Shown here: piece by piece, positions 151 through 47,501 of the stretch
Layout: each line of letters starts with the position of its first letter
Position numbering within the stretch: position 1 is the first letter of the stretch
Assembly (NCBI GenBank): GCA_020849665.1
Contig: JADLFX010000044.1
Coordinates: forward strand, 1-64,000
DNA from: Planctomycetota bacterium
GTDB taxonomy: Bacteria; Planctomycetota; UBA1135; UBA2386
Length of the DNA stretch: 64,000 nucleotides
Direction: 5' to 3'
Notes under the pieces: generated by a model
What the model was told of the DNA's origin: nothing
Seen by the model: the letters and a program-made list of their open reading frames with translations, nothing else
Database searches by the model: none
Translations under genes and position numbers: made by a program

Positions 151-1035
151 ATGACCCCGAACCAGCACCCCGACGCGACCGCGCCCCTGCGCCTCGCCCT
201 GCCCAAGGGCCGCATGCAGCCCGCGGTGTTCCAGCTCCTCGCCGACGCCGGGATCGCGCTCCGCCAGGGCAGCCGCGAGTACCGGCCCACGCTCGACCTG
301 CCGGGCTTCGAGGCGAAGGTCCTCAAGCCGCAGAACATCGTGGAGATGCTGCATCTCGGCTCCCGCGACCTGGGCTTCGCCGGCGCCGACTGGGTGCGCG
401 AACTCGGCGCGGATCTGGTGGAGGTCCTAGACACGGGTCTCGACCCGGTGCAGATCGTCGCCGCCGCCCCGCGCGCGCTCCTCGCCGCGGGCCGCCTGCC
501 AGCGCGACCACTCGTGGTCGCCTCCGAGTACACCGAGCTGGCACGCGCCTGGATCCGCGCAGCGGGCCTCGACGCCACGCTGGCCCGCTCGTACGGCGCG
601 ACCGAGGTGTTCCCTCCCGAAGACGCCGACTGCATCGTCGACAACACCGCGAGCGGCGCCACGCTGCGCGCCAACGACCTGGAGGTCGTTGCGGTGCTGA
701 TGGCCTCGACCACGCGCCTCTACGCCAACCCGCGCGCCTGGGCGCGGCCCGAGCGGCGTGCGGCGATCGACCGGCTCGCACTCCTGCTGGGCTCGGTTCT
801 CGACGCGCGCCGCCGCGTGATGCTCGAGGTGAACGTCGCGCCCGAGCGGCTCGAGGCCGTGTGCGCGATCCTGCCGTGCATGCGCGAACCGACCATCGCG
901 CCTCTGCACGGCGACGCCGGATACGCGGTGAAGGCGGCGGTACCGCGCGCCGACCTGCCGCGCCTGATCCCCGAGATCAAGGCGCGCGGCGGAACGGATC
1001 TCGTGGTCTCCCAGCTCGCGCAGATCGTGTCATGA
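151..1035 (+). CDS. hisG: ATP phosphoribosyltransferase, long form (HisG)
   Basis: Catalyses the first step of histidine synthesis, joining ATP and PRPP to give phosphoribosyl-ATP. The 294-residue product has the N-terminal LALPKGRMQ motif of the family and the phosphate-binding DNTASGATLRAN loop near residue 165. A C-terminal ferredoxin-like regulatory domain starts around VMLEVNVAPERLEAV. The presence of that domain marks the long HisG form, which does not need a HisZ partner. I chose the ATG at 151 (MTPNQ) rather than the GTG at 115 because the family core begins shortly after it. The stop overlaps the next start as ATGA, so it is probably translationally coupled to hisC. Feedback inhibition by histidine is expected from the family and not shown here. 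Confidence 0.95.
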   Translation: MTPNQHPDATAPLRLALPKGRMQPAVFQLLADAGIALRQGSREYRPTLDLPGFEAKVLKPQNIVEMLHLGSRDLGFAGADWVRELGADLVEVLDTGLDPVQIVAAAPRALLAAGRLPARPLVVASEYTELARAWIRAAGLDATLARSYGATEVFPPEDADCIVDNTASGATLRANDLEVVAVLMASTTRLYANPRAWARPERRAAIDRLALLLGSVLDARRRVMLEVNVAPERLEAVCAILPCMREPTIAPLHGDAGYAVKAAVPRADLPRLIPEIKARGGTDLVVSQLAQIVS

Positions 1036-2771
1036 GCCGGGATACCCGCATCGCCCCGGCTGCGGGGCCCACTCCGTCGGCGCTGGTAGCGCAGGTGACC
1101 CCGTACCCCACCGCGGCCCGCGCCGGCGTCGACCTGCGGCTGGACGGCAACGAAGGCCTCCTGCCCGCACCAGCCCTCCTCGACGCCCTCTACGACGCCG
1201 GCCCCGAGGTCCTGCGCAGCTACCCCGACGCCAGCGGACTCGAGCGCCGGATCGCCGAACGCCACGGCCTCGATCCTGCCTGCGTCGTGGTCACGGCCGG
1301 GGCCGACGAGGCGCTCGACCGCCTGTGTCGCGCCTTCCTCGGACCCGGGCGCGAGTGCGTCCTGCCGGTGCCGACCTTCGAGATGCTGCACCGCTATCCG
1401 CTGCTCTCCGGCGGCATCCTGGTCGAGGTGCCCTGGCCGCCCGGCACCCCATGGCCGACGGCCGCGGTGCGCCGGGCGCTCACGCCGAGAACCGGGATCG
1501 TCGCGCTCGTCAGCCCCAACAACCCCACCGGGACGACGCTCGACGCCGCGACCCTGCGCGCGATCAGTGCCGCCGCACCCACGGCGCTGGTGCTCCTCGA
1601 CCACGCCTACGCCGAGTTCGCCGACGAAGACCTGACGCCGCAGGCCCTCGCCCTGCCCAACGCGGTGGTCGTGCGCACGCTGTCCAAGGCCTACGGTCTC
1701 GCCGGCGCGCGCGTCGGCTACGTGCTGGGCGCGCGCACGCTGCTCGAGCCGCTCCGCGCCGCGGCCGGACCCTACCCGGTGGCCGGGCCGAGCCTGCTCC
1801 TGGCCGCGGCGGCGCTGCGTCGCGACGCCGCCGTGCGCGGGTTCGTCGCGCGGGTCCGCGCCGAGCGCGCAGCCCTGGCCGATCTGCTGCGCGCGCTGGG
1901 CGCCCAGCCGCTGCCCAGCCAGGCCAACTTCGTGCTCGCGCGCTTCGCCGACCCCGATTGGGTCCGCGACGCCCTGGCCGGACTGGGGATCGCCGTGCGC
2001 CGCTTCGCAGGCCGCGCGGCCCTGCACGAGCACCTGCGCATCACCTGTCCCGGCGACGGATCCGCATTCACGCGCCTCGCGCACGCGCTGCGCACCGCCC
2101 TCCAGCCGGAGGCCCTGCTCCTCGACCTCGACGGGGTCCTCGCCGACGTCTCGCGCTCGTACCGCGCGGCAATCATCGCCACCGCCGCCAGCTTCGGCGT
2201 CGCGCTCGACGCCGCGGAGGTGGCCGCGGCCAAGCGCCGGGGCGACGCCAACGATGACTGGCGCCTGACCCGCCGCCTCATGGCGGAGCGCGGGGTCGCC
2301 GTGCCGCAGGCCACGGTCACCGGACGCTTCGAGGCGCTCTACCAGGGCAGCGCAGCGCACCCCGGCCTGCGTGCCACCGAGCGCCTGATCCCCGGGCGCA
2401 CCCTCCTGGAGCGGCTCGCGCTGCGCCTGCCCCTCGGCATCGTCACCGGACGACCGCGCGCCGACGCCGAGCGCTTCCTGGACGAGCAGGGCATCCGCGA
2501 CCTCTTCGCCGCCTGCGTGACCATGGAGGACGCGCCCGCCAAGCCGGATCCGGCGCCCGTGCGCCTCGCCCTGCAGCGCCTCGGCGTCGCGCGCGCGTGG
2601 CTGGTCGGCGACACCGTCGACGATCTGCGCGCCGCGCGCGCCGCGGACGTGGTGCCGCTGGCCGTTCCGGCCCCCGGCGAGGACCAGGACGTGGCGCGCG
2701 CAGCCTTCGCCGCCGCCGGCGTCGCGCGCACGTTCGCTTCGCTGGCCGAAGTCCTGGAGGTGCTGCCGTGA
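1032..2771 (+). CDS. hisC: Histidinol-phosphate aminotransferase fused to HAD phosphatase (HisC-HAD)
   Basis: One continuous 579-residue frame holds two enzymes. Residues about 1-355 are a fold-type I PLP aminotransferase of the HisC family, with LDGNEG near the N terminus, SPNNPTG, and the PLP lysine in [16 protein letters not shown]. From about residue 362 a HAD hydrolase follows: motif [12 protein letters not shown], motif II VTGRP, motif III lysine in KPDP and acidic motif IV GDTVDD. HisC transaminates imidazole acetol phosphate to histidinol phosphate. I infer that the HAD half is the histidinol-phosphate phosphatase, because the operon otherwise lacks one. The HAD part resembles the IA-subfamily proteins sometimes fused to histidine enzymes (TIGR01548-like, from memory). 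It overlaps hisG by ATGA and hisB by GTGA. Confidence 0.92.
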
Positions 2772-7372: not shown

Positions 7373-9790
<2,418 letters not shown>

Positions 9791-10182
9791 CCGATGGGCT
9801 GCGGCGGCAGCTTCGGTGGCCGCGCCGCGCGCCGGCAGGCCCGTGAGCGGCAGCGTCGCGGGCTCCCGCGCAGGGGCAGGCCGGGAGTCGGGGTCCGGGG
9901 CAGGCGGCACGCGGAGACTCTCTCCGCGTGCTCCGGCTCCGTCCAGGACCACGGGCGCCGCCGGGCCATCGCAGCCGTGCCGGCCGGCGTTCCAGTCCGC
10001 AGCGCAGCCGCGCGACGCACCGGGGAATCCGTAGAAGCCGGACCGCGCCGGCGGGGCAGGGAACGTGGCGGACGGGATGCACTTGCATGCCAGCAGGCGC
10101 CGGGCGTCCGCCGCGACGAGCGGCGGAGGCCGCGCCTTCCGGGCAGCGCCGGGAGGCGCGATGATCCGCGTCGATCCCCGCC
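9791..10182. other. Intergenic region between divergent kinase and amidohydrolase genes
   Basis: This segment separates two divergent genes and must hold both promoters unless the kinase starts upstream at the GTG at 9952. The kinase frame stays open through it (AAAHR, ESLRVPPAPDPDSRP), which leaves the kinase start unsettled. No confident -10/-35 pair, hairpin or small gene is visible. Confidence 0.4.
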
Positions 10183-11838
10183 ATGCTCTGCGCCGCCACG
10201 CTCGCGTTCGTCCTCGCCGTACCTGGGGCCCAGGAGTCCGCGCCCCACGCAGCGTCGGCCCTGATCCTGCGCGGCGGCAAGGTGTGGACCGGGGTGGCGG
10301 GAGCACCCGAGGCACAGGCCATACTGATCCTCGGCGAGCGGATCGAGTTCGTGGGCAGCGACGCGGAGGCGGCGGCACGGGCCCCCGCGGGCGCGCGCAC
10401 CTTCGATCTGCTGGGCAGGCGCGTGGTGCCCGGCATCGTCGACGCGCACGTGCACTTCCTGAGCGGCGGCGACACGCTCCTCGCGCCCGACCTGCGCGGC
10501 GCCCGCAGCGAGGAGGAACTCGCGCGCCGCCTGGGCGAGTCGGCCGAGCTCGTTCCTGACGGCACCTGGCTCACGTCGGGGACCTGGGACCACGAGAACT
10601 GGCCGGGTGCACGCCTGCCGACCGCAGCGGTCCTCGATCGCTTCACCCCGAGACACCCGGTGTTCGTCGCGCGGCTCGACGGGCACATGGCGGTGGCCAA
10701 CTCCCTGGCGATGCGGATCGCGGGCGTGGGCAAGGACACGGCCGACCCCCCGGGAGGCGCGATCGAGCGGGACGGCACGGGAGCCCCCGCCGGCGTGTTC
10801 AAGGACGCGGCCATGGCGCTGATCGCCAAGCACGTACCGGCGTGGAGCGCCGAGCAGCGCCTCGAGCGCGCCCGCATGGCGCTGGCCCACGCCGCGTCCC
10901 TGGGCGTGACCAGCGTGCACGACATGCTCGACGGCCACGACGCGCTCGCCACCTACCAGGAGCTGCGCCGCCGGGGCGAGCTGACCGCGCGCATCACGCT
11001 CTACGCGCCGATCACCGCGCATGCACTCTGGGGCGGGCTCAAGGTGCAGCGCGGCTTCGGCGACGCCTGGCTGCGGATCAACGGCGTGAAGGCGTTCGCC
11101 GACGGCTCGCTGGGATCGACCACTGCCTGGTTCTTCGAGCCCTATGCCGACGCGCCGGGGACGAGCGGCCTCGCCCAGACCGAGCTGAAGGCGGGCGGCA
11201 TGCTCGACCGCCAGTTGGCCGCGACGCTGCGGGACGGGCTGCAGCCGGCCATCCACGCCATCGGCGACCGCGCGATCCGCGCCGTGCTCGACCTTGCCGC
11301 CGCCCGGGCGAAGCCCGCCCAGCGACTGCGCCTCGAGCACGCCCAGCACATCCACCCCGACGACCTGCCGCGCTTCGCCGGCCTGGGCGTGATCGCGTCG
11401 ATGCAGCCCTATCACGCCATCGACGACGGGCGCTGGGCCGAGAAGCGCATCGGCGCGGAGCGCTGCCGGACGACCTACGCATTCCGTTCGCTCCTGGATC
11501 GCGGCGCGGTGCTCGCGTTCGGATCGGACTGGCCGGTGGCGCCGCTCTCGCCCTGGGAGGGGCTCTACGCGGCCGTCACGCGCCGGACCCTGGACGGGCG
11601 CAACCCGGAGGGCTGGGTCCCGGAGCAGCGGATCCGCCTGGAGGAAGCACTGCGGGCCTACACCGCGGGCTCGGCGTACGCGGGCTTCGCCGAGACCGAG
11701 GTCGGCACGCTCGAGCCGGGCAAGTACGCCGACCTCGTGGTCCTCGAACCCGATCTGTTCGCCCTGCCGGCGGAGCGGCTGCGCGAGATTGCGGTACGAA
11801 TCACGCTCGTGGGCGGGCGCGTCGCACATCTGCGTTGA
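10183..11838 (+). CDS. Secreted YtcJ-type metal-dependent amidohydrolase
   Basis: A 551-residue member of the amidohydrolase superfamily, amidohydrolase-3/YtcJ type. A short N-terminal hydrophobic stretch (MLCAATLAFVLAVPGAQ) looks like a signal peptide, so it probably acts outside the cytoplasm. The metallohydrolase core begins with VVPGIVDAHVHF, which supplies the HxH metal ligands. Further landmarks are the GTWDHENWPGARLP segment characteristic of YtcJ proteins, KAFADGSLGSTTAWF, HAIGDRAI, LEHAQHI, AFGSDWPVAPLSP and the C-terminal ADLVVLE. The substrate cannot be told from sequence; relatives act on N-acyl or cyclic amide substrates. It stands alone, divergent from the kinase. Confidence 0.85.
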   Translation: MLCAATLAFVLAVPGAQESAPHAASALILRGGKVWTGVAGAPEAQAILILGERIEFVGSDAEAAARAPAGARTFDLLGRRVVPGIVDAHVHFLSGGDTLLAPDLRGARSEEELARRLGESAELVPDGTWLTSGTWDHENWPGARLPTAAVLDRFTPRHPVFVARLDGHMAVANSLAMRIAGVGKDTADPPGGAIERDGTGAPAGVFKDAAMALIAKHVPAWSAEQRLERARMALAHAASLGVTSVHDMLDGHDALATYQELRRRGELTARITLYAPITAHALWGGLKVQRGFGDAWLRINGVKAFADGSLGSTTAWFFEPYADAPGTSGLAQTELKAGGMLDRQLAATLRDGLQPAIHAIGDRAIRAVLDLAAARAKPAQRLRLEHAQHIHPDDLPRFAGLGVIASMQPYHAIDDGRWAEKRIGAERCRTTYAFRSLLDRGAVLAFGSDWPVAPLSPWEGLYAAVTRRTLDGRNPEGWVPEQRIRLEEALRAYTAGSAYAGFAETEVGTLEPGKYADLVVLEPDLFALPAERLREIAVRITLVGGRVAHLR

Positions 11839-12119: not shown

Positions 12120-13076
12120 ATGCGCACTGCCTTGCCCCGCCTGCTCACCGCGCTCGTGTTCGCCTCCGCTCTCGCCGCACAGCGGCCCGTCCAGGACGAG
12201 CTCGGCTCGCCCTCTTCGACGCCGCCGGCGGGAGGCGGGCCCAACCTGGTCACCGCTCAGTACACGCTCTTCGGCGACAACTGCGGCCCGTCGTGCGCAT
12301 CGCTGAACGCCGACCGCGGCAGTTTCCGCACGGGCACGCTCCCGAACGAGTACGCGTTCGGGCACAAGTTCGCGGCCCCCACCGTGATCGTGGGCTTCCA
12401 GCTCTACACGCGCACCAACACGCTGCCGAGCGCATCGATGACCTGCGCGCTGTACCGCGCGTCGCCCGCCAACCCCATCGCGCCGGACCTACTGCCCGTC
12501 GCGACCGGCGCGATGACCGTGGGCAACACGGTGGACTTCTACAGCGTGCTGCTCAACCAGCCGGTGACCGTCAACGCCAACGAGAACGTCTGGATCACGC
12601 AGTACGACTCGACCAACATCCTCGCCGCGGCGGTCACCGCGGGCACCACGCCGGCGCTCTCCACCTGCTGGCGCCGCCCCGCGGGTGGCGGCACCGCATG
12701 GGCGACCACCGGCACGATCAACTATCCCGCGTGGCGCATCCTCTGTGCGCCCGATCTGGCCTCCTTCCACTCCGCCCGGCCGCAGCTCGGCACGACCATC
12801 CGCCTGGACCTGCAGGGTGCGCCGGCCAACGCGTTGGCGGTCCTCTTCTTCGGGGGCAGCAACCCCAACGTGCCGACGCCGTTCTGCACGAGCCTCTACT
12901 CCGCCCCCACGGTGTCGCTCCCGACCACGACCGGTGCGAACGGCAAGGCCTCGTTCTCCCTGGCGATCCCCAACAGCGCGTCCCTGGACGGGGTGACCTT
13001 CTTCAACCAATGGTGGGCGCTGAGCGGCGCCACCGTGGTCGGCTCCAACGGCGGCCACGCCGTGCTCGGCAACTGA
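12120..13076 (+). CDS. Secreted protein with the shared uncharacterised C-terminal domain
   Basis: A 318-residue exported protein of unknown function. A clear signal peptide (MRTALPRLLTALVFASALAA) precedes QRPVQDELGSPSS. The middle region is rich in Thr, Asn and Tyr and looks like a beta-sandwich: TVIVGFQLYTRTNT, ITQYDSTNIL, NYPAWRILCAPD. The last 85 residues (ALAVLFFGGSNP to GGHAVLGN) match the C-terminal domain of other secreted proteins here, with IPNSASLDGVTFFNQWW in place of the usual IPNDPxLVGxxFxxQ. I chose this ATG because GAGGA sits nine bases upstream; an ATG at 12111 would add only MHP. Likely a surface or extracellular structural or binding protein. Confidence 0.7.
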   Translation: MRTALPRLLTALVFASALAAQRPVQDELGSPSSTPPAGGGPNLVTAQYTLFGDNCGPSCASLNADRGSFRTGTLPNEYAFGHKFAAPTVIVGFQLYTRTNTLPSASMTCALYRASPANPIAPDLLPVATGAMTVGNTVDFYSVLLNQPVTVNANENVWITQYDSTNILAAAVTAGTTPALSTCWRRPAGGGTAWATTGTINYPAWRILCAPDLASFHSARPQLGTTIRLDLQGAPANALAVLFFGGSNPNVPTPFCTSLYSAPTVSLPTTTGANGKASFSLAIPNSASLDGVTFFNQWWALSGATVVGSNGGHAVLGN

Positions 13077-13176: not shown

Positions 13177-13843
13177 TCAGGGCAGGGCGCCAAAGCGACG
13201 CGCGACGGCGCCACCCGGGGTGTTGGTCGAGGAATCGCTGCAGGTACCGGCCGGCGAATGTGGCTGCTGCTGTTGAGCTGTCGGAGCGGATGCGGCTGCG
13301 CCTCGCCGATCACCACCTCGTTGCCCGTTGTCACCGGGTTCGCGGTTGGCGAGACGATGTCGATCAGCAGGTTGCCCTGGGCTGCGATGCACAGGAACGG
13401 CGACGCCAGGGTGAGGTTCGCCCACGGCGCCACGCCACCCGGCGTGGACGTGCAGGCCGCGAGGCCGACCGGGCCGTTGAACACGCGCGTCGTCGCTCCG
13501 GTGATGCTGGTCGCGAAGGTCGTCGACATCGAACCTGGCGAGAGCGTCGAATGGCTGAGGTCGATGGTCGATCGGGCAGGCGCACGGCCGTCGAACCGCC
13601 CGGATCGTCGTCGTCGGGCCGATACGCGATCGCCTGGATCACGCCCACCGTGCCAGTCACCGAGCCCTGGGCGATGCGCTGCTGGGAACGGAATCCGGCG
13701 AAGCCGAACGGGTACCTGGCGAGGTCGTTGCCCTCGACACCCTCGGGGATCGAGGGCACGGGCTCGTGGTCCTGGGCCGGCAACGCCAGGGAAGCGGAGA
13801 CGATCGCCGACAGCCCGGCCGCACTGAGGTGCTTGGAGCGCAT
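13177..13843 (-). pseudogene. Frameshifted secreted beta-rich protein gene
   Basis: The gene starts at an ATG at 13843 with a good signal peptide (MRSKHLSAAGLSAIVSASL) and runs in frame to about 13600 (IQAIAYRPDDDDPGG). The coding signal then jumps to another frame: TIDLSHSTLSPGSMSTTFA, RVFNGPVGLA and GNLLIDIVSPTANPVTTGN, to about 13265. It then jumps to a third frame that ends GAVARRFGALP at 13177. Read across both shifts, this is one protein of about 220 residues. It belongs to a secreted family recognisable by the triad of RPD, S-x-T-F-A and GNLLxD. Each jump corresponds to one missing base, or two extra. The first lies near a run of G and a GAC repeat, the second near an AGC repeat. It could be a real pseudogene or sequencing error. 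Confidence 0.6.
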
Positions 13844-25071: not shown

Positions 25072-25545
25072 CGTGCGCGCGAGCATACGGCCTCGCGCCG
25101 TACGCCCCAGCACGTCCAGGACCGAGCGACGGACCCTGCCGTGCGGGGCTCGTCCCCTCCCCCACACCCCAGGAGGCCCATGGCGAGGACGAGAAGTGCG
25201 AGCGGTGAGACTCGCGACGTCGCGCGTGCTAGGGAGCATGGACTTCCTGCCGAAGGTCTGGGCATGGGGGACATCGGCTCGCCTGGGACGCGGTGCGTGA
25301 TGCGGCCGGATCCGGCCCGCATGTCACGGCGTTGGCAGGGGACCCATCGCGGCCCGGGGGCTTGCCCCGGCCCGAGCCCGTGCCCCAGGCGCAGGCGCGC
25401 CGCTCCCCTGCCGCGCTGGGGTCGCCCGGGCGCCTCGCGCGGGGATCGTGACGCCAATCCACAAGACGCCAGGGCCGCCCGGCGCTCCCCGCCACCGGCC
25501 GCAGATGCGTGGCGGCGATCCGGTGCCGCACGCCGCGCCACCGCG
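25072..25545. other. Intergenic region, glucosidase to secreted protein
   Basis: This segment lies between divergent genes. The plus-strand frame of the secreted protein stays open from ATGs at 25300 and 25321, but the Arg/Pro-rich reading (RRWQGTHRGPGACP) does not look coding. No confident promoter, hairpin or small gene can be named. Confidence 0.35.
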
Positions 25546-26589
25546 GTGCTCCTGGCGGCGCTGGCCGCCCCGCTCTGCGCGCAGCGCCACCTCCATCTGC
25601 CCGCGGGCAGCGAGACGCGCGAGGGCAACTTCTCCAACACCATCCCGTTCTGGTCCGGCTCGGCCACCTACCAGCAGTTCCACGACGACGTCGAGCTGGC
25701 CCGCCTCGGAGCGGGGCCCTGGACCGTGGTCGGCCTCGCGCTCCGCAAGGACCGCGATCCGGCCAACACCACGGCGCGCAGCCTCGAGGTGACCCTGAGC
25801 CTCAACCTGACCTCGGTCTCGTCCCGCACGATGACCGGAGACTTCGCCGCCAACCTGGGGCCGGGCGCCACCACGGTGCTGCCGTGGACCTCCGTGAACC
25901 TGCCGGCGCTGACCAACGTGAGCACGCCCAACCCCCCCGCCCTGGCGATCGCCTTCGCCCAGCCGTTCGTGCTGGCGCCCGCGCCGGGCCGGCATCTGGT
26001 GTGGGAGTGGCGCCATCGCCGCAACAGCGACACGTCGTTCCTGATCCTCGACGCGGTCGATGCGGAGACCGCGGTACCGCATCCCAACGAGGGTCGCGGC
26101 TGCCGTTCGCCTTCGCAGCCGTCGCCGGCCACGGTGGTGGAGCGCTCGCTGCGTCTCACCGCCGGCACGACCCTGCGGATGAAGCTCGACTTCGCCGCGC
26201 CCGGGGCACCGGCGGCGCTCCTGCTCGGCTTCCAGCGCGGCACCCTCCAGGTGCCGGGATTCTGCGCGCCCGCGCTCCTCGTGCCGCTGATGACCCTCCC
26301 GGGCGCCACGGATCCCGGCGGGCGCCTCGACCTGATCGTGACCAACGGCGACCTGCGCGGGCTCGCGGCCGACGTCCTGCTCGGGCAGTTCCTCTTCCTG
26401 GATCCGGGGATCCCGCCCGGAGCGGGACTCTCGGACCTGGCGGTCCTCGAGCTGCCTCTGCCCGGCGCGTCGTCCACCGGCCGCGCGTACACCTCCCCGC
26501 AGAGCGCCGGTCAGGGCTTCGAGAACTCGACCATGGCGCAAACCGTGGATCGGTGGCGCTCGCTCGCCGTGGCGCTGCGGCTCCCCTGA
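25546..26589 (+). CDS. Secreted beta-rich protein with shared C-terminal domain
   Basis: An exported protein of about 347 residues and unknown function. The signal-like stretch is AVLLAALAAPLCAQ, preceded in frame by the basic WRRSGAARRAT, so the true start is uncertain. The GTG at 25546 lies inside the hydrophobic run; the nearest upstream ATGs, at 25300 and 25321, would give an implausibly long leader. The middle reads like a surface beta-sandwich (RHLHLPAGSETREGNFSN, WTVVGLALRKDRDP, GRHLVWEWRHRRNSDTSF). The last 85 residues (AALLLGFQRGTLQVPGF onward, ending LAVLELPLP) are a divergent copy of the C-terminal domain seen in four other secreted proteins here. Confidence 0.65.
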   Translation: MLLAALAAPLCAQRHLHLPAGSETREGNFSNTIPFWSGSATYQQFHDDVELARLGAGPWTVVGLALRKDRDPANTTARSLEVTLSLNLTSVSSRTMTGDFAANLGPGATTVLPWTSVNLPALTNVSTPNPPALAIAFAQPFVLAPAPGRHLVWEWRHRRNSDTSFLILDAVDAETAVPHPNEGRGCRSPSQPSPATVVERSLRLTAGTTLRMKLDFAAPGAPAALLLGFQRGTLQVPGFCAPALLVPLMTLPGATDPGGRLDLIVTNGDLRGLAADVLLGQFLFLDPGIPPGAGLSDLAVLELPLPGASSTGRAYTSPQSAGQGFENSTMAQTVDRWRSLAVALRLP

Positions 26590-26617: not shown

Positions 26618-27736
26618 ATGCGGCGCATCCTCGCAGCCCTGACCCTGGCCGGATCCCTGGCCGGATGCCTCGCGGCGCAGGCCGCGGTGACCGAGTCGGC
26701 GCCGGCCCCGGCCACGGCCCCCTCCAGCAGGCCGGCCGATCCCGCGACGGTGCTCGAGCGCCTCGCCGCTCCCCTGGCGACCGCCGGCAGGAGCCCCTGC
26801 CTCGTGGCCGGCGTGGTGCGGGACGGCCATCGCACGATCCGCGGCTTCGGCCGCGTACGCGCCGGCGCGGACGCCGCGCCCGACGGCAGGACGGTCTTCG
26901 AGATCGGCTCGATCACCAAGACCTTCACCGCCCTCCTCCTCGCCGACATGGTGGAGCGCGGGGAGGTGCGGCTCGAACAGACGCTGCAGAGCCTCCTGCC
27001 GGCGGAGCTGCGCGTACCGGAGCGCAACGGCAAGGCGATCACGTTGGCGCAGCTCGCCACCCACACCAGCGCGCTGCCGCGCCTGCCCTGGAACCTCGCG
27101 CCCCGGACCATGCGCAACCCCTACGCCGAGTACGACGCGCCGAAGCTGCAGGAGCTCTTCGCGATCCTCGAACTCGGGCGCGACCCGGGCGCACGCTACG
27201 AGTACTCGAACCTCGGCTACGGCCTGCTCGGCCACGCGCTCGTCCTGCACGCCGAGGCCGCGGACTACGAGGCGCTCCTGCGCAAGCGCGTCCTGGATCC
27301 CCTCGGCCTCGCGGACACCCGGATCACCCTCGCCCCGGAGCAGGCCGCGCGCCTCGCGCCCGGACACGACGAGAAGGGCAACATCGTGGCGAACTGGACC
27401 TTCGGCCTGATCGCCGGGGCCGGCGCGCTGCGCGGCACCGTGGCCGACCTCTTGGACTACGGCGAGCAGGCCGGCGGCCTGCGCGAGTCGCCGCTCGCCG
27501 CGGCGTTCCGCCGCTGCACGAAGGTGACCTTCCAGCAGCGCGAGCTGCGGGTCGGGCTGGGCTGGCATCTCGCGCGGATCGGCGGCGTCGAGGTGGTCTG
27601 GCACAACGGCGGCACCGGCGGCTACCGCAGCCATCTGGCGGTCGCGCCCGAGCGCGGCCTCGTGGTTGCGGTCCTGAGCGCATCGGTGCACCAGGTCGAC
27701 GAGCTGGCGCAACAGATCCTGCGGGAGATGCTCTGA
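26618..27736 (+). CDS. Serine beta-lactamase-like hydrolase, lipoprotein
   Basis: A 372-residue serine hydrolase of the class C beta-lactamase/penicillin-binding fold. A lipobox (LAGSLAGC) in the signal peptide predicts lipid anchoring at the envelope. The catalytic triad motifs are visible: SITK in FEIGSITKTFTALLLADM (SxxK), YSN in ARYEYSNLGYGLLGHAL (YxN), and the HxG box in VVWHNGGTGGYRSHLAV. Relatives include D-Ala-D-Ala carboxypeptidases, esterases and true AmpC enzymes. Nothing here supports antibiotic resistance in particular. It is a single gene, about 105 bp upstream of the CstA-type transporter. Confidence 0.85.
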   Translation: MRRILAALTLAGSLAGCLAAQAAVTESAPAPATAPSSRPADPATVLERLAAPLATAGRSPCLVAGVVRDGHRTIRGFGRVRAGADAAPDGRTVFEIGSITKTFTALLLADMVERGEVRLEQTLQSLLPAELRVPERNGKAITLAQLATHTSALPRLPWNLAPRTMRNPYAEYDAPKLQELFAILELGRDPGARYEYSNLGYGLLGHALVLHAEAADYEALLRKRVLDPLGLADTRITLAPEQAARLAPGHDEKGNIVANWTFGLIAGAGALRGTVADLLDYGEQAGGLRESPLAAAFRRCTKVTFQQRELRVGLGWHLARIGGVEVVWHNGGTGGYRSHLAVAPERGLVVAVLSASVHQVDELAQQILREML

Positions 27737-27842
27737 GCCCGGGGCGGGGGCGGGCCCCGCGACGCTATCCTCCCGCTGCCATGCCCGGCCCGACCAGGAC
27801 CGCCCGACCCGCGCGCAGGGATGCGCAGGCACGCAGGGCCGC

Positions 27843-29543
27843 ATGACCCTCGCCCCGCTGGTGCTCCTCTGCCTGGGACTCTTCGTCCTGGCGTACCTCC
27901 TCTACGGGCGGCTCCTCGCGCGGCTCTTCCGCCTGGACGCGAAGGCGCGCACCCCGGCGCACGAGCGCTGCGACGGCGTGGACTACGTGCCGACGTCGCG
28001 TTTCTACCTGCTCTCGCAGCACTTCTCGGCCATCTCCGCCGCGGGGCCGATCGCGGGGCCGATCCTCGCGTGCACGATGTTCGGTTGGGAACCGGCGCTG
28101 CTGTGGATCGTGCTCGGCTCGATCTTCATCGGCGCGATGCACGACTTCGCCGCGCTGATCGGCTCCGTGCGGCACGGCGGCTGCTCCGTGGCGGAGATCC
28201 TCAAGCGCCACCTCAACCCGCGGACCTACGCGCTGTTCAGCCTCTACATCTGGTTCGCGCTGATCTACGTGATCCTCGCGTTCACCGACGTGACCGCGCG
28301 CGCGTTCGTCGAGAACCTGGAGGTCGAGGTGGGCACGACGGGAGGCACGATGCTGCGGGTGCCCGGCGCGGGCGTGGCCAGCGCCTCGATGCTCTACCTG
28401 GGCCTCGGCCTGCTGCTGGGCGTGGTGACCCGCTACCTGCGCTGGCGCGTGGCGGTGCAGACCCTGGTGTTCGTGCCCCTGGTCGGCGTGGCGATCTGGC
28501 TGGGGCCCCACCTGCCGCTCGACCTGAGCAGCGGCGGCGAGATCCCCTCGCTGACGTGGGCGTGGCTGATCCTCGGCTACTGCGGCGTCGCCTCGCTCCT
28601 GCCGGTGTGGCTGCTCCTGCAGCCGCGCGGCTACCTGGGCGGGTTCTTCCTGTACCTCACGCTGGGCGGCGGCCTCGTCGGCCTCCTGGTCGCCAACCCG
28701 GAGATCCGCTTCGACGCGTTCGCCGGGTTCACCGCCCGGAACGGCCAGACCCTCTATCCGTTCCTGTTCATCACCATCGCCTGCGGAGCGTGCAGCGGCT
28801 TCCACGGACTCGTGTGCTCGGGCACCACCAGCAAGCAGATCGACCGCGAACCCGACGCCCACGCCGTCGGCTACGGTGCGATGCTGCTGGAGGGCGTCGT
28901 GGCGATCCTCGCGCTCGCTTGCGTCATGTGGCTGGCGAAGGACGCGGCCCTGATCGGCAAGGGGCCCGACAAGGTGTTCGGCTACGGCGTGGGATCGTTC
29001 CTGAACGCCCTGGGCGTCCCGCTGCACTTCGCCGTGACGTTCGGGATGCTCGCGTTCGCCACGTTCGTCTACGACACCCTCGACGTGTGCACGCGACTCG
29101 CGCGATACCTCTTCCAGGAGTTCACCGGCTGGCGCGGGCCGGGCGCGGCCGTGGCAGGCACGCTCGTGTCCCTGGCGATCCCACTCTGGGCCGTGGCCCA
29201 GACCGCGCGCGACCCGACCGGCGCCGTGGTGCCGGCGTACCGGGTCGTGTGGCCGCTCTTCGGCTCGACCAACCAGCTCCTGGCCGCACTCACCCTGGTC
29301 GCGCTCACCCTGTGGCTCACGCGCACCGGCCGGCCGCTGGTCGTGCGCCTCCTCGTCGGCCTGCCGGCGCTCTTCATGCTGGCCACGACCATGACCGCGC
29401 TCTGGCTGCAGGTGCGCAGCGCGTGGACGTCACCGGGCAGCCAGCCGATCGTGTACGTGGGCGCGCTGCTGATGGTGCTGGCCGCCTGGGTGAGCGTGGA
29501 GGCGATGGTGGCGCTGCGCGCGGGGCGGACGCGGGCGGCATGA
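27843..29543 (+). CDS. cstA: CstA-family transporter
   Basis: A 566-residue integral membrane protein of the CstA/BtsT family. The conserved N-terminal signature is present: ARTPAHERCDGVDYVPTSRF, LLSQHFSAISAAGPIAGPIL and GSIFIGAMHDFAALIGSVRH. More than a dozen hydrophobic segments follow, with CSGFHGLVCSGTTSKQI and TRLARYLFQEFTGW as family landmarks. Characterised members import pyruvate or peptides during carbon limitation; the substrate of this one is inferred only from family. It is shorter than the roughly 700-residue E. coli CstA, matching the compact branch. No regulatory pair (BtsSR type) is adjacent. Confidence 0.9.
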   Translation: MTLAPLVLLCLGLFVLAYLLYGRLLARLFRLDAKARTPAHERCDGVDYVPTSRFYLLSQHFSAISAAGPIAGPILACTMFGWEPALLWIVLGSIFIGAMHDFAALIGSVRHGGCSVAEILKRHLNPRTYALFSLYIWFALIYVILAFTDVTARAFVENLEVEVGTTGGTMLRVPGAGVASASMLYLGLGLLLGVVTRYLRWRVAVQTLVFVPLVGVAIWLGPHLPLDLSSGGEIPSLTWAWLILGYCGVASLLPVWLLLQPRGYLGGFFLYLTLGGGLVGLLVANPEIRFDAFAGFTARNGQTLYPFLFITIACGACSGFHGLVCSGTTSKQIDREPDAHAVGYGAMLLEGVVAILALACVMWLAKDAALIGKGPDKVFGYGVGSFLNALGVPLHFAVTFGMLAFATFVYDTLDVCTRLARYLFQEFTGWRGPGAAVAGTLVSLAIPLWAVAQTARDPTGAVVPAYRVVWPLFGSTNQLLAALTLVALTLWLTRTGRPLVVRLLVGLPALFMLATTMTALWLQVRSAWTSPGSQPIVYVGALLMVLAAWVSVEAMVALRAGRTRAA

Positions 29544-45916: not shown

Positions 45917-46031
45917 TCTCCGGTCGTCCCGCTAGCCGCGGATCCTGTGCCGCTCGCCCCGCGCGATGCGCTCGCTGCCGTGGACGCGTTCCCGCGCTGC
46001 CTCTCTCTCTCCAGACCCTCCCCACCCTGCG

Positions 46032-47501
46032 ATGACGCAATACAGGCTCTCCGTCTCGATCTCCGCCCTCGTCGTGCTCGCGGCCCTCGCCCACGCCCAG
46101 AACCTCAACACCCGGCTCGTGGGCTCGGCCAACAAGTTCCCGGGCGCGGTCACACCCACCAACAACTACGCCGGCGTCTGGGGCATCGTGGGCCGCAACG
46201 GCAAGGAGTACGCGATCGTGCCGGCGCGCACGGGCACGGTGATCTACGACTGCAGCAACCCGGCCACGCCGGTGGAGCGCGGGTTCATCGCCGGACCGGG
46301 CAGCACTTCGCAGCCGTACTTCTGGCGTGAGGCCAACAGCTACGGCGACTACGTCTACATCAGCTCCGAGCACGGCCCGCTGCAGGTCATCAACATGACC
46401 AATCCGGACGCGCCGGCGCTGGCCGGGACGTTCGGGACCACGGCGCACACGGTGAGCGTCGACCCGGGCACCGGCGTCCTGTGGGCGAGCGGCGGCGGGC
46501 CGCGCGGCTGCGTGCTCTTCAACGTGGCCGCGAACCCGATCGCACCCGCCGAGCTGCGCCGCTACACCACGGACTACGTGCACGACTGCCTGCCGATCCG
46601 GGGCTACGCCTATCTGGCGCAGATCTTCAGCGGCAACATGCGGATCCTCAGCACGGCCAACATCGGCAGCGGCCTGCCGATCGTGAGCACCACGACCACG
46701 CCGGGTCGCTTCACGCACAACGTCTGGGTCACCGACGACGACAAGCTGGCGGTCACGGCCGACGAGAACCAGGGCGGCTGCCTCACGGTGTACGACATCA
46801 GCAACAAGGCCGCGCCGGTGCAGCGCTCCACCTGGTGCAGCCCGAACGGCGCCACCGTGCACAACGTGTTCATCAAGGGCAAGGTCGCCCACTTCTCGTC
46901 CTACTCGGACGGCTATTGGGCGATCGACATCAGCAAGCCCACTTCGCCGAAGCCCGTGGCGCGCTTCGACACCAACGCCCTGACCGGCAGCGACTACCAC
47001 GGCTGCTGGGGCTGCTACCCGTTCCAGCCCTCGGGCCTGATCTACCTGACCGACATGCAGACCGGGTTCTTCATCGTCGAGGTGACCGCGGGCGTGCCGA
47101 ACCACTACGGCAAGGGCACCGCCGGCACCGGCGGACTCGTGCCGACCATCGACTATGCCGGCGGCTTCGCGCAGGTCGGCAACGGCACGTTCGCGATCGA
47201 GGGCACGCAGATGCGCGGCGGATCGAGCGCCGCCCTGATCCTGGGCGTCGCAGCCACGAACCAGAGCGTGCTCGGCATCGACCTGCTCGTCGACCTCGGC
47301 CAGCCGAACGTGGTGTTCACGTCCGCGACCGGCGGCAACGGCGGCGTGGCCGGCTCGGGCAGCGCGAACATCCCGGTCCCGCTGCCGAACACTCCGGGCA
47401 TCGCGGGGGCGACGCTCTACGCGCAATACGTGGTGGCCGATCCGACCAACCCGGCCGGGCTCTCCGCGTCGCGCGGCATGAAGGTCACGATCGCCCAGTG
47501 A
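46032..47501 (+). CDS. Secreted LVIVD-repeat (choice-of-anchor B-like) protein with shared C-terminal domain
   Basis: A 489-residue secreted protein. Signal peptide MTQYRLSVSISALVVLAALA. Repeats of the LVIVD type follow: TGTVIYDCSNPATPVERGFI, GPLQVINMTNPDAPALAGTF, GCLTVYDISNKAAPVQRSTW and GYWAIDISKPTSPKPVARFD. They should form a propeller, with conserved HDCLPIRGYAYLAQ and HNVFIKGKVAHFSSYSDGYW segments of the choice-of-anchor B family. The final 80 residues are the shared domain (IPVPLPNTPGIAGATLYAQY). The family is known for surface or secreted proteins of marine bacteria; the ligand is unknown. GTG of the next gene overlaps its stop (GTGA). Confidence 0.8.
   Translation: MTQYRLSVSISALVVLAALAHAQNLNTRLVGSANKFPGAVTPTNNYAGVWGIVGRNGKEYAIVPARTGTVIYDCSNPATPVERGFIAGPGSTSQPYFWREANSYGDYVYISSEHGPLQVINMTNPDAPALAGTFGTTAHTVSVDPGTGVLWASGGGPRGCVLFNVAANPIAPAELRRYTTDYVHDCLPIRGYAYLAQIFSGNMRILSTANIGSGLPIVSTTTTPGRFTHNVWVTDDDKLAVTADENQGGCLTVYDISNKAAPVQRSTWCSPNGATVHNVFIKGKVAHFSSYSDGYWAIDISKPTSPKPVARFDTNALTGSDYHGCWGCYPFQPSGLIYLTDMQTGFFIVEVTAGVPNHYGKGTAGTGGLVPTIDYAGGFAQVGNGTFAIEGTQMRGGSSAALILGVAATNQSVLGIDLLVDLGQPNVVFTSATGGNGGVAGSGSANIPVPLPNTPGIAGATLYAQYVVADPTNPAGLSASRGMKVTIAQ

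Follow-up and report, generated by a model that had tools for sequence, protein, structure and literature searches.

Pseudogenes that combine insertions or deletions of bases with an internal deletion are known in the paralogous families of free-living bacteria, where one copy carries the lesions and intact paralogues remain. Here we describe such a copy in a Planctomycetota bacterium (genome G000, 5.24 Mb in 122 contigs), on the minus strand at positions 13177-13843 of the window, i.e. the whole 64 kb stretch of contig JADLFX010000044.1 that was analysed. It is very probably a genuine pseudogene of a large secreted two-domain protein family. Set against the pseudogenes of paralogous families in free-living bacteria it shows nothing unusual, and only its host family is uncharacterised.

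Reading frames and frame shifts of the broken gene

The coding signal runs on the minus strand from an ATG at 13843 (start codon 13843-13841) to a TGA at 13177 (native stop 13179-13177), a gene of 667 bases, and translation of the window showed that it crosses three frames. Frame 0 (MRSKHLSAAGLSAIVSASLALPAQ...STAVRLPD) is open from the ATG to about 13572, frame 2 (TIDLSHSTLSPGSMSTTFA...GEAQPHPLRQL) spans about 13570 to about 13270, and frame 1 (...STNTPGGAVARRFGALP) terminates at the TGA. Third-position G+C lies between 0.85 and 0.95 in segments one and two and tracks the change of frame, and a codon-usage Viterbi scan independently picked out 13849-13571 and 13529-13293, each in a different frame of the minus strand. 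For the third segment, which is too short to be judged by codon usage, the support comes from homology. The preliminary description had given the coordinates and the three-frame signal exactly. Its reading of one lost base per shift was also borne out, each transition being net -1 (frame 0 to 2 near 13570, frame 2 to 1 near 13264) by translation as well as by alignment to homologues.

Segment 1 (13573-13843) holds the start codon, a signal-peptide-like N-terminus, judged by eye from the sequence, and the first part of the N-terminal domain, as determined by translation and alignment to two intact homologues, L021 and L022. The first frame shift (13559-13576, net -1) was placed at about 13569 by alignment to three homologues, and lies beside two copies of a 7-base unit (13559-13572). 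Translation and alignment assigned the remainder of the N-terminal domain, up to NLLIDIV, to segment 2 (13353-13570), which shows 47% identity to L021 across residues 88-165 of the query. Beyond an internal deletion junction (13329-13352) the C-terminal tail begins (TTGNEVVIGEAQPHPLRQL; 13270-13328), still in the frame of segment 2. The second frame shift (13255-13275, net -1) fell at about 13264 against both L021 and L022, its exact base being uncertain. The end of the tail (...TPGGAVARRFGALP) and the native stop occupy 13177-13260 and align with ILGGPVVRFSGTFF and the stop codon of L021.

A codon-usage frame scan of 464 kb of the 5.24 Mb genome, the rest of the window included, revealed no other frame break of comparable strength, in agreement with the earlier remark that damage is concentrated here. 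Eight other frame changes were flagged in the 464 kb, not each of which was inspected by hand; in most of them a stop lay no more than about 60-115 bases away or one flanking segment measured at most 120 bases, like ordinary gene boundaries, and one was a local excursion returning to its own frame. One or both single-base shifts could be consensus mistakes, the gene being a real, internally deleted short form in one frame, and the fragmented assembly (122 contigs), the single-base size of both shifts and the unspoiled codon bias in each segment would all suit such an explanation. However, given that the 464 kb scanned of this assembly show no comparable break, it would be a coincidence for two errors to fall within about 310 bases, and in a gene with a large deletion as well. 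Moreover, no homopolymer longer than four bases is present in the gene and none at the shifts, and we regard consensus mistakes as improbable.

Programmed ribosomal frameshifting or phase-variable slippage, both raised in the preliminary description, would give the full protein in some cells. In their favour, two copies of a 7-base unit lie at the first shift, and a change in its copy number would alter the frame, but such a repeat is present at one shift only, and it is one of eight 7-base duplications of this kind in 64 kb. Neither a slippery heptamer nor a long run was seen at either shift. No run of four or more bases occurs at either of them; the longest runs in the gene are of four G, and the only run of such length near a shift (GGGG at 13217-13220) lies about 40-50 bases past the second. 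Apart from the 7-base unit, the sole repeat at the shifts is a (CAG)3 near the second, which, having a unit of three, cannot shift the frame. The intact homologues and paralogues examined are single-frame, as are nearly all of the roughly 56 paralogues in the genome, and the approximately 149 codons spanning two domains that are missing from the gene (see below) lie beyond recovery by any frame change or by any repeat found. Both mechanisms are thus highly improbable.

Internal deletion and intact homologues

The gene bears a third lesion, which had been missed in the preliminary description. Frameshift-aware alignment to L021 and L022 with a gap extension of -0.2 revealed that about 149 codons are absent from the middle of the gene, while the last 45 or so codons and the native stop are retained. 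Almost directly after ...GNLLIDIVS (about 13350) comes TTGNEVVIGEAQPHPLRQL (from about 13331), a match to TTNGLELTIGEAGNHPLRM close to the L021 C-terminus, and the final residues TPGGAVARRFG pair with ILGGPVVRFSG before the stop. With the default gap-extension cost the alignment ends before the tail, and the tail was therefore tested separately. Against the L021 C-terminus it scored 67, whereas codon shuffles averaged 24.6 (s.d. 3.8) and reached 37 at most, and the best of 294 other pieces of the window reached 55; against the L022 C-terminus it scored 61, with maxima of 47 for codon shuffles (mean about 24.7, s.d. about 4) and 48 for other window pieces. Homology of the tail was thus above all 300 codon shuffles. 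The middle segment is present in all homologues examined, in rows of the family alignment as well as in further alignments, and among the N-terminal domain matches no open frame is shorter than 334 residues apart from that of the window gene (278).

A deletion of about 149 codons is not explicable by base-calling error. The reading frame is disrupted relative to intact homologues by more than one independent lesion, and one of these could not be such an error. The two shifts together with the deletion support the pseudogene option among those put forward earlier. With both shifts corrected about 149 codons would still be missing, and raw reads restoring a single frame, which had been expected to refute the break, would not make the gene whole.

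The read-through protein matched many open genes, both in its own genome and elsewhere in the family and order. The closest homologues, L021 and L022, which come from Planctomycetota MAGs and are 42-43% identical over about 165 residues, each encode 363 residues in a single frame and begin with a signal-peptide-like sequence. In JACRLW010000102.1 (NC_groundwater_1891, L021/L070) and JADLHO010000150.1 (SJ480, L022/L071), the start, N-terminal domain, tail motif and stop position are as in the window copy; they differ in having one open frame and a full C-terminal domain, against two shifts and some 149 missing codons in the window copy. Neither of the two shows synteny with the window, their genomic neighbourhoods being different. 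The suggested comparison with close relatives for an intact copy yielded, as the nearest, single-frame homologues that are about 42% identical and not syntenic, and no intact orthologue in the corresponding position was seen. Membership of a secreted family, as proposed from the sequence, was supported.

An AlphaFold model of mature L022 (mean pLDDT 91.6, pTM 0.83) is confident and mostly beta, its N-terminal part ending near residue 183 and its C-terminal part spanning about 200-344, limits that were read from the strand list. The deletion takes the last strands of the N-terminal domain and most of the C-terminal domain: the missing residues (about 143-291 in L022 mature numbering) remove strands 153-183 and 200-283. 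Judging from the model, neither of the two beta domains could be complete in the broken gene. Pfam and NCBIfam gave no named family for the protein, a PDB sequence search gave nothing meaningful, and a fold search with the L022 model returned only weak, low-TM beta-sandwich matches and no reliable solved relative. A named-genome scan with the read-through protein gave no confirmed match, and one with the intact L022 protein found the two source MAGs only; a six-row family alignment offered no stretch of sufficient conservation for such a scan. A plasmid DNA search gave no match, and a literature search on the family found nothing.

Paralogous family in the same genome

A profile built from 23 sequences (A2) gave at least 142 matches in the genome, of which at least about 56, counted from the table, span both domains; these counts are lower bounds, as 150 of 319 candidates were scored. 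Both pieces of the broken gene match the family profile (E 2.3e-18 and 9.7e-16), and the N-terminal domain pattern of the family (PFG...R.Q, MSTTFA.N, GNLL.D) is present in it. A complete C-terminal beta domain is absent, only its last 45 or so codons being left. We accordingly classed the gene as a broken descendant of the secreted two-domain beta family, and not as a working member. An intact full-length second member of the family is present within the window itself (25528-26481, plus strand).

Two paralogues are also interrupted, each by an in-frame TAG. In L072 (451-1527, minus strand; G000:C34, about 26950-28026) the TAG (L072 871-873) lies between the N- and C-terminal domains, and the halves on either side of it are otherwise in one frame. 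In L085 (about 277-1326, plus strand; G000:C59:109276-110325) it lies inside the N-terminal domain, between ATSITI and VRISTAAT, with the frame intact on both sides. That the codon is TAG in both may be chance, since native TAG stops also occur in the genome. Flags of one TGA in other paralogue matches were discarded as breaks, those checked being native stops just past the domain. The remaining paralogues examined are open.

A large paralogous family that includes other broken copies would also fit a silent cassette, in which the broken copy is a donor for gene conversion into expressed paralogues. However, even the best-matching paralogues share only about 28-40% identity with the window copy at the protein level, and so give no hint of sequence exchange; this speaks against any recent gene conversion involving the window copy. 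A donor role is very unlikely.

In the pseudogene reading, the parent gene would have encoded about 350 residues, made up of a signal peptide and two beta domains, one N-terminal and one C-terminal. The window copy would have been deprived of about 149 codons, covering the end of the N-terminal domain and most of the C-terminal domain, and would have gained two net -1 shifts. A product translated from the ATG would consist of the signal peptide, part of the N-terminal domain and then out-of-frame residues. The likely process is gene birth and death within the paralogous family, and the loss would be tolerable because about 56 other full-length paralogues remain. From the codon bias, which is still intact, the pseudogene appears to be fairly recent; intact bias makes old decay less likely, but is compatible with a very young lesion or with an error. 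Loss of function in the broken gene, like the order of its lesions, we infer.

The C-terminal domain and its distribution

With the lost segment the broken gene is missing most of an unnamed C-terminal domain, about 135 residues long, which in most proteins is preceded by a GxGCxGxxG linker. In the genome this domain ends about 80 unrelated secreted proteins and about 56 two-domain paralogues (about 140 in total; lower bounds, with 150 of 319 A2 candidates scored). Profile A4 placed it at the extreme C-terminus of all unrelated secreted proteins read out in the genome, and proteins ending in it include a sulfatase, a beta-lactamase-fold protein, two kelch proteins, an F5/8-type-C protein and one with a weak trypsin-like match. 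Instances in G000 were recorded on C11, C32, C45, C50, C56 and C60 (L047, L048, L055, L089, L090, L092, L094). No Pfam or NCBIfam match covers the domain in the proteins read out. Of 199 Planctomycetota genomes sampled, 39 contain it, often with more than 10 copies each.

Within the window, a convergent intact secreted-protein gene (12132-13076, plus strand, its start being approximate) adjoins the broken gene and ends in the C-terminal domain of the family (C44:12768-13079, plus strand, E 3.9e-5). The domain also ends a choice-of-anchor B protein (45936-47498), at 47100-47498 on the plus strand. Elsewhere in the window, an open frame at 7373-10378 (minus strand) resembles, by eye only, a Ser/Thr protein kinase followed by a formylglycine-generating-enzyme-like domain.

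Members of the choice-of-anchor families end in different sorting or anchor domains, and the position of the unnamed domain after a choice-of-anchor B domain suggests a sorting or anchoring module. We tentatively propose from such sequence contexts that in some Planctomycetota it may serve as a module for sorting or surface anchoring, the pseudogene being a paralogue with its anchor lost, a proposal that we hold as possible rather than probable.

Taken alone, the broken gene matters little, being a single dead copy and an ordinary finding. It points, however, to a large uncharacterised family that is losing members, and it has led to an unnamed C-terminal domain that could be tested as a protein-sorting or anchoring module.
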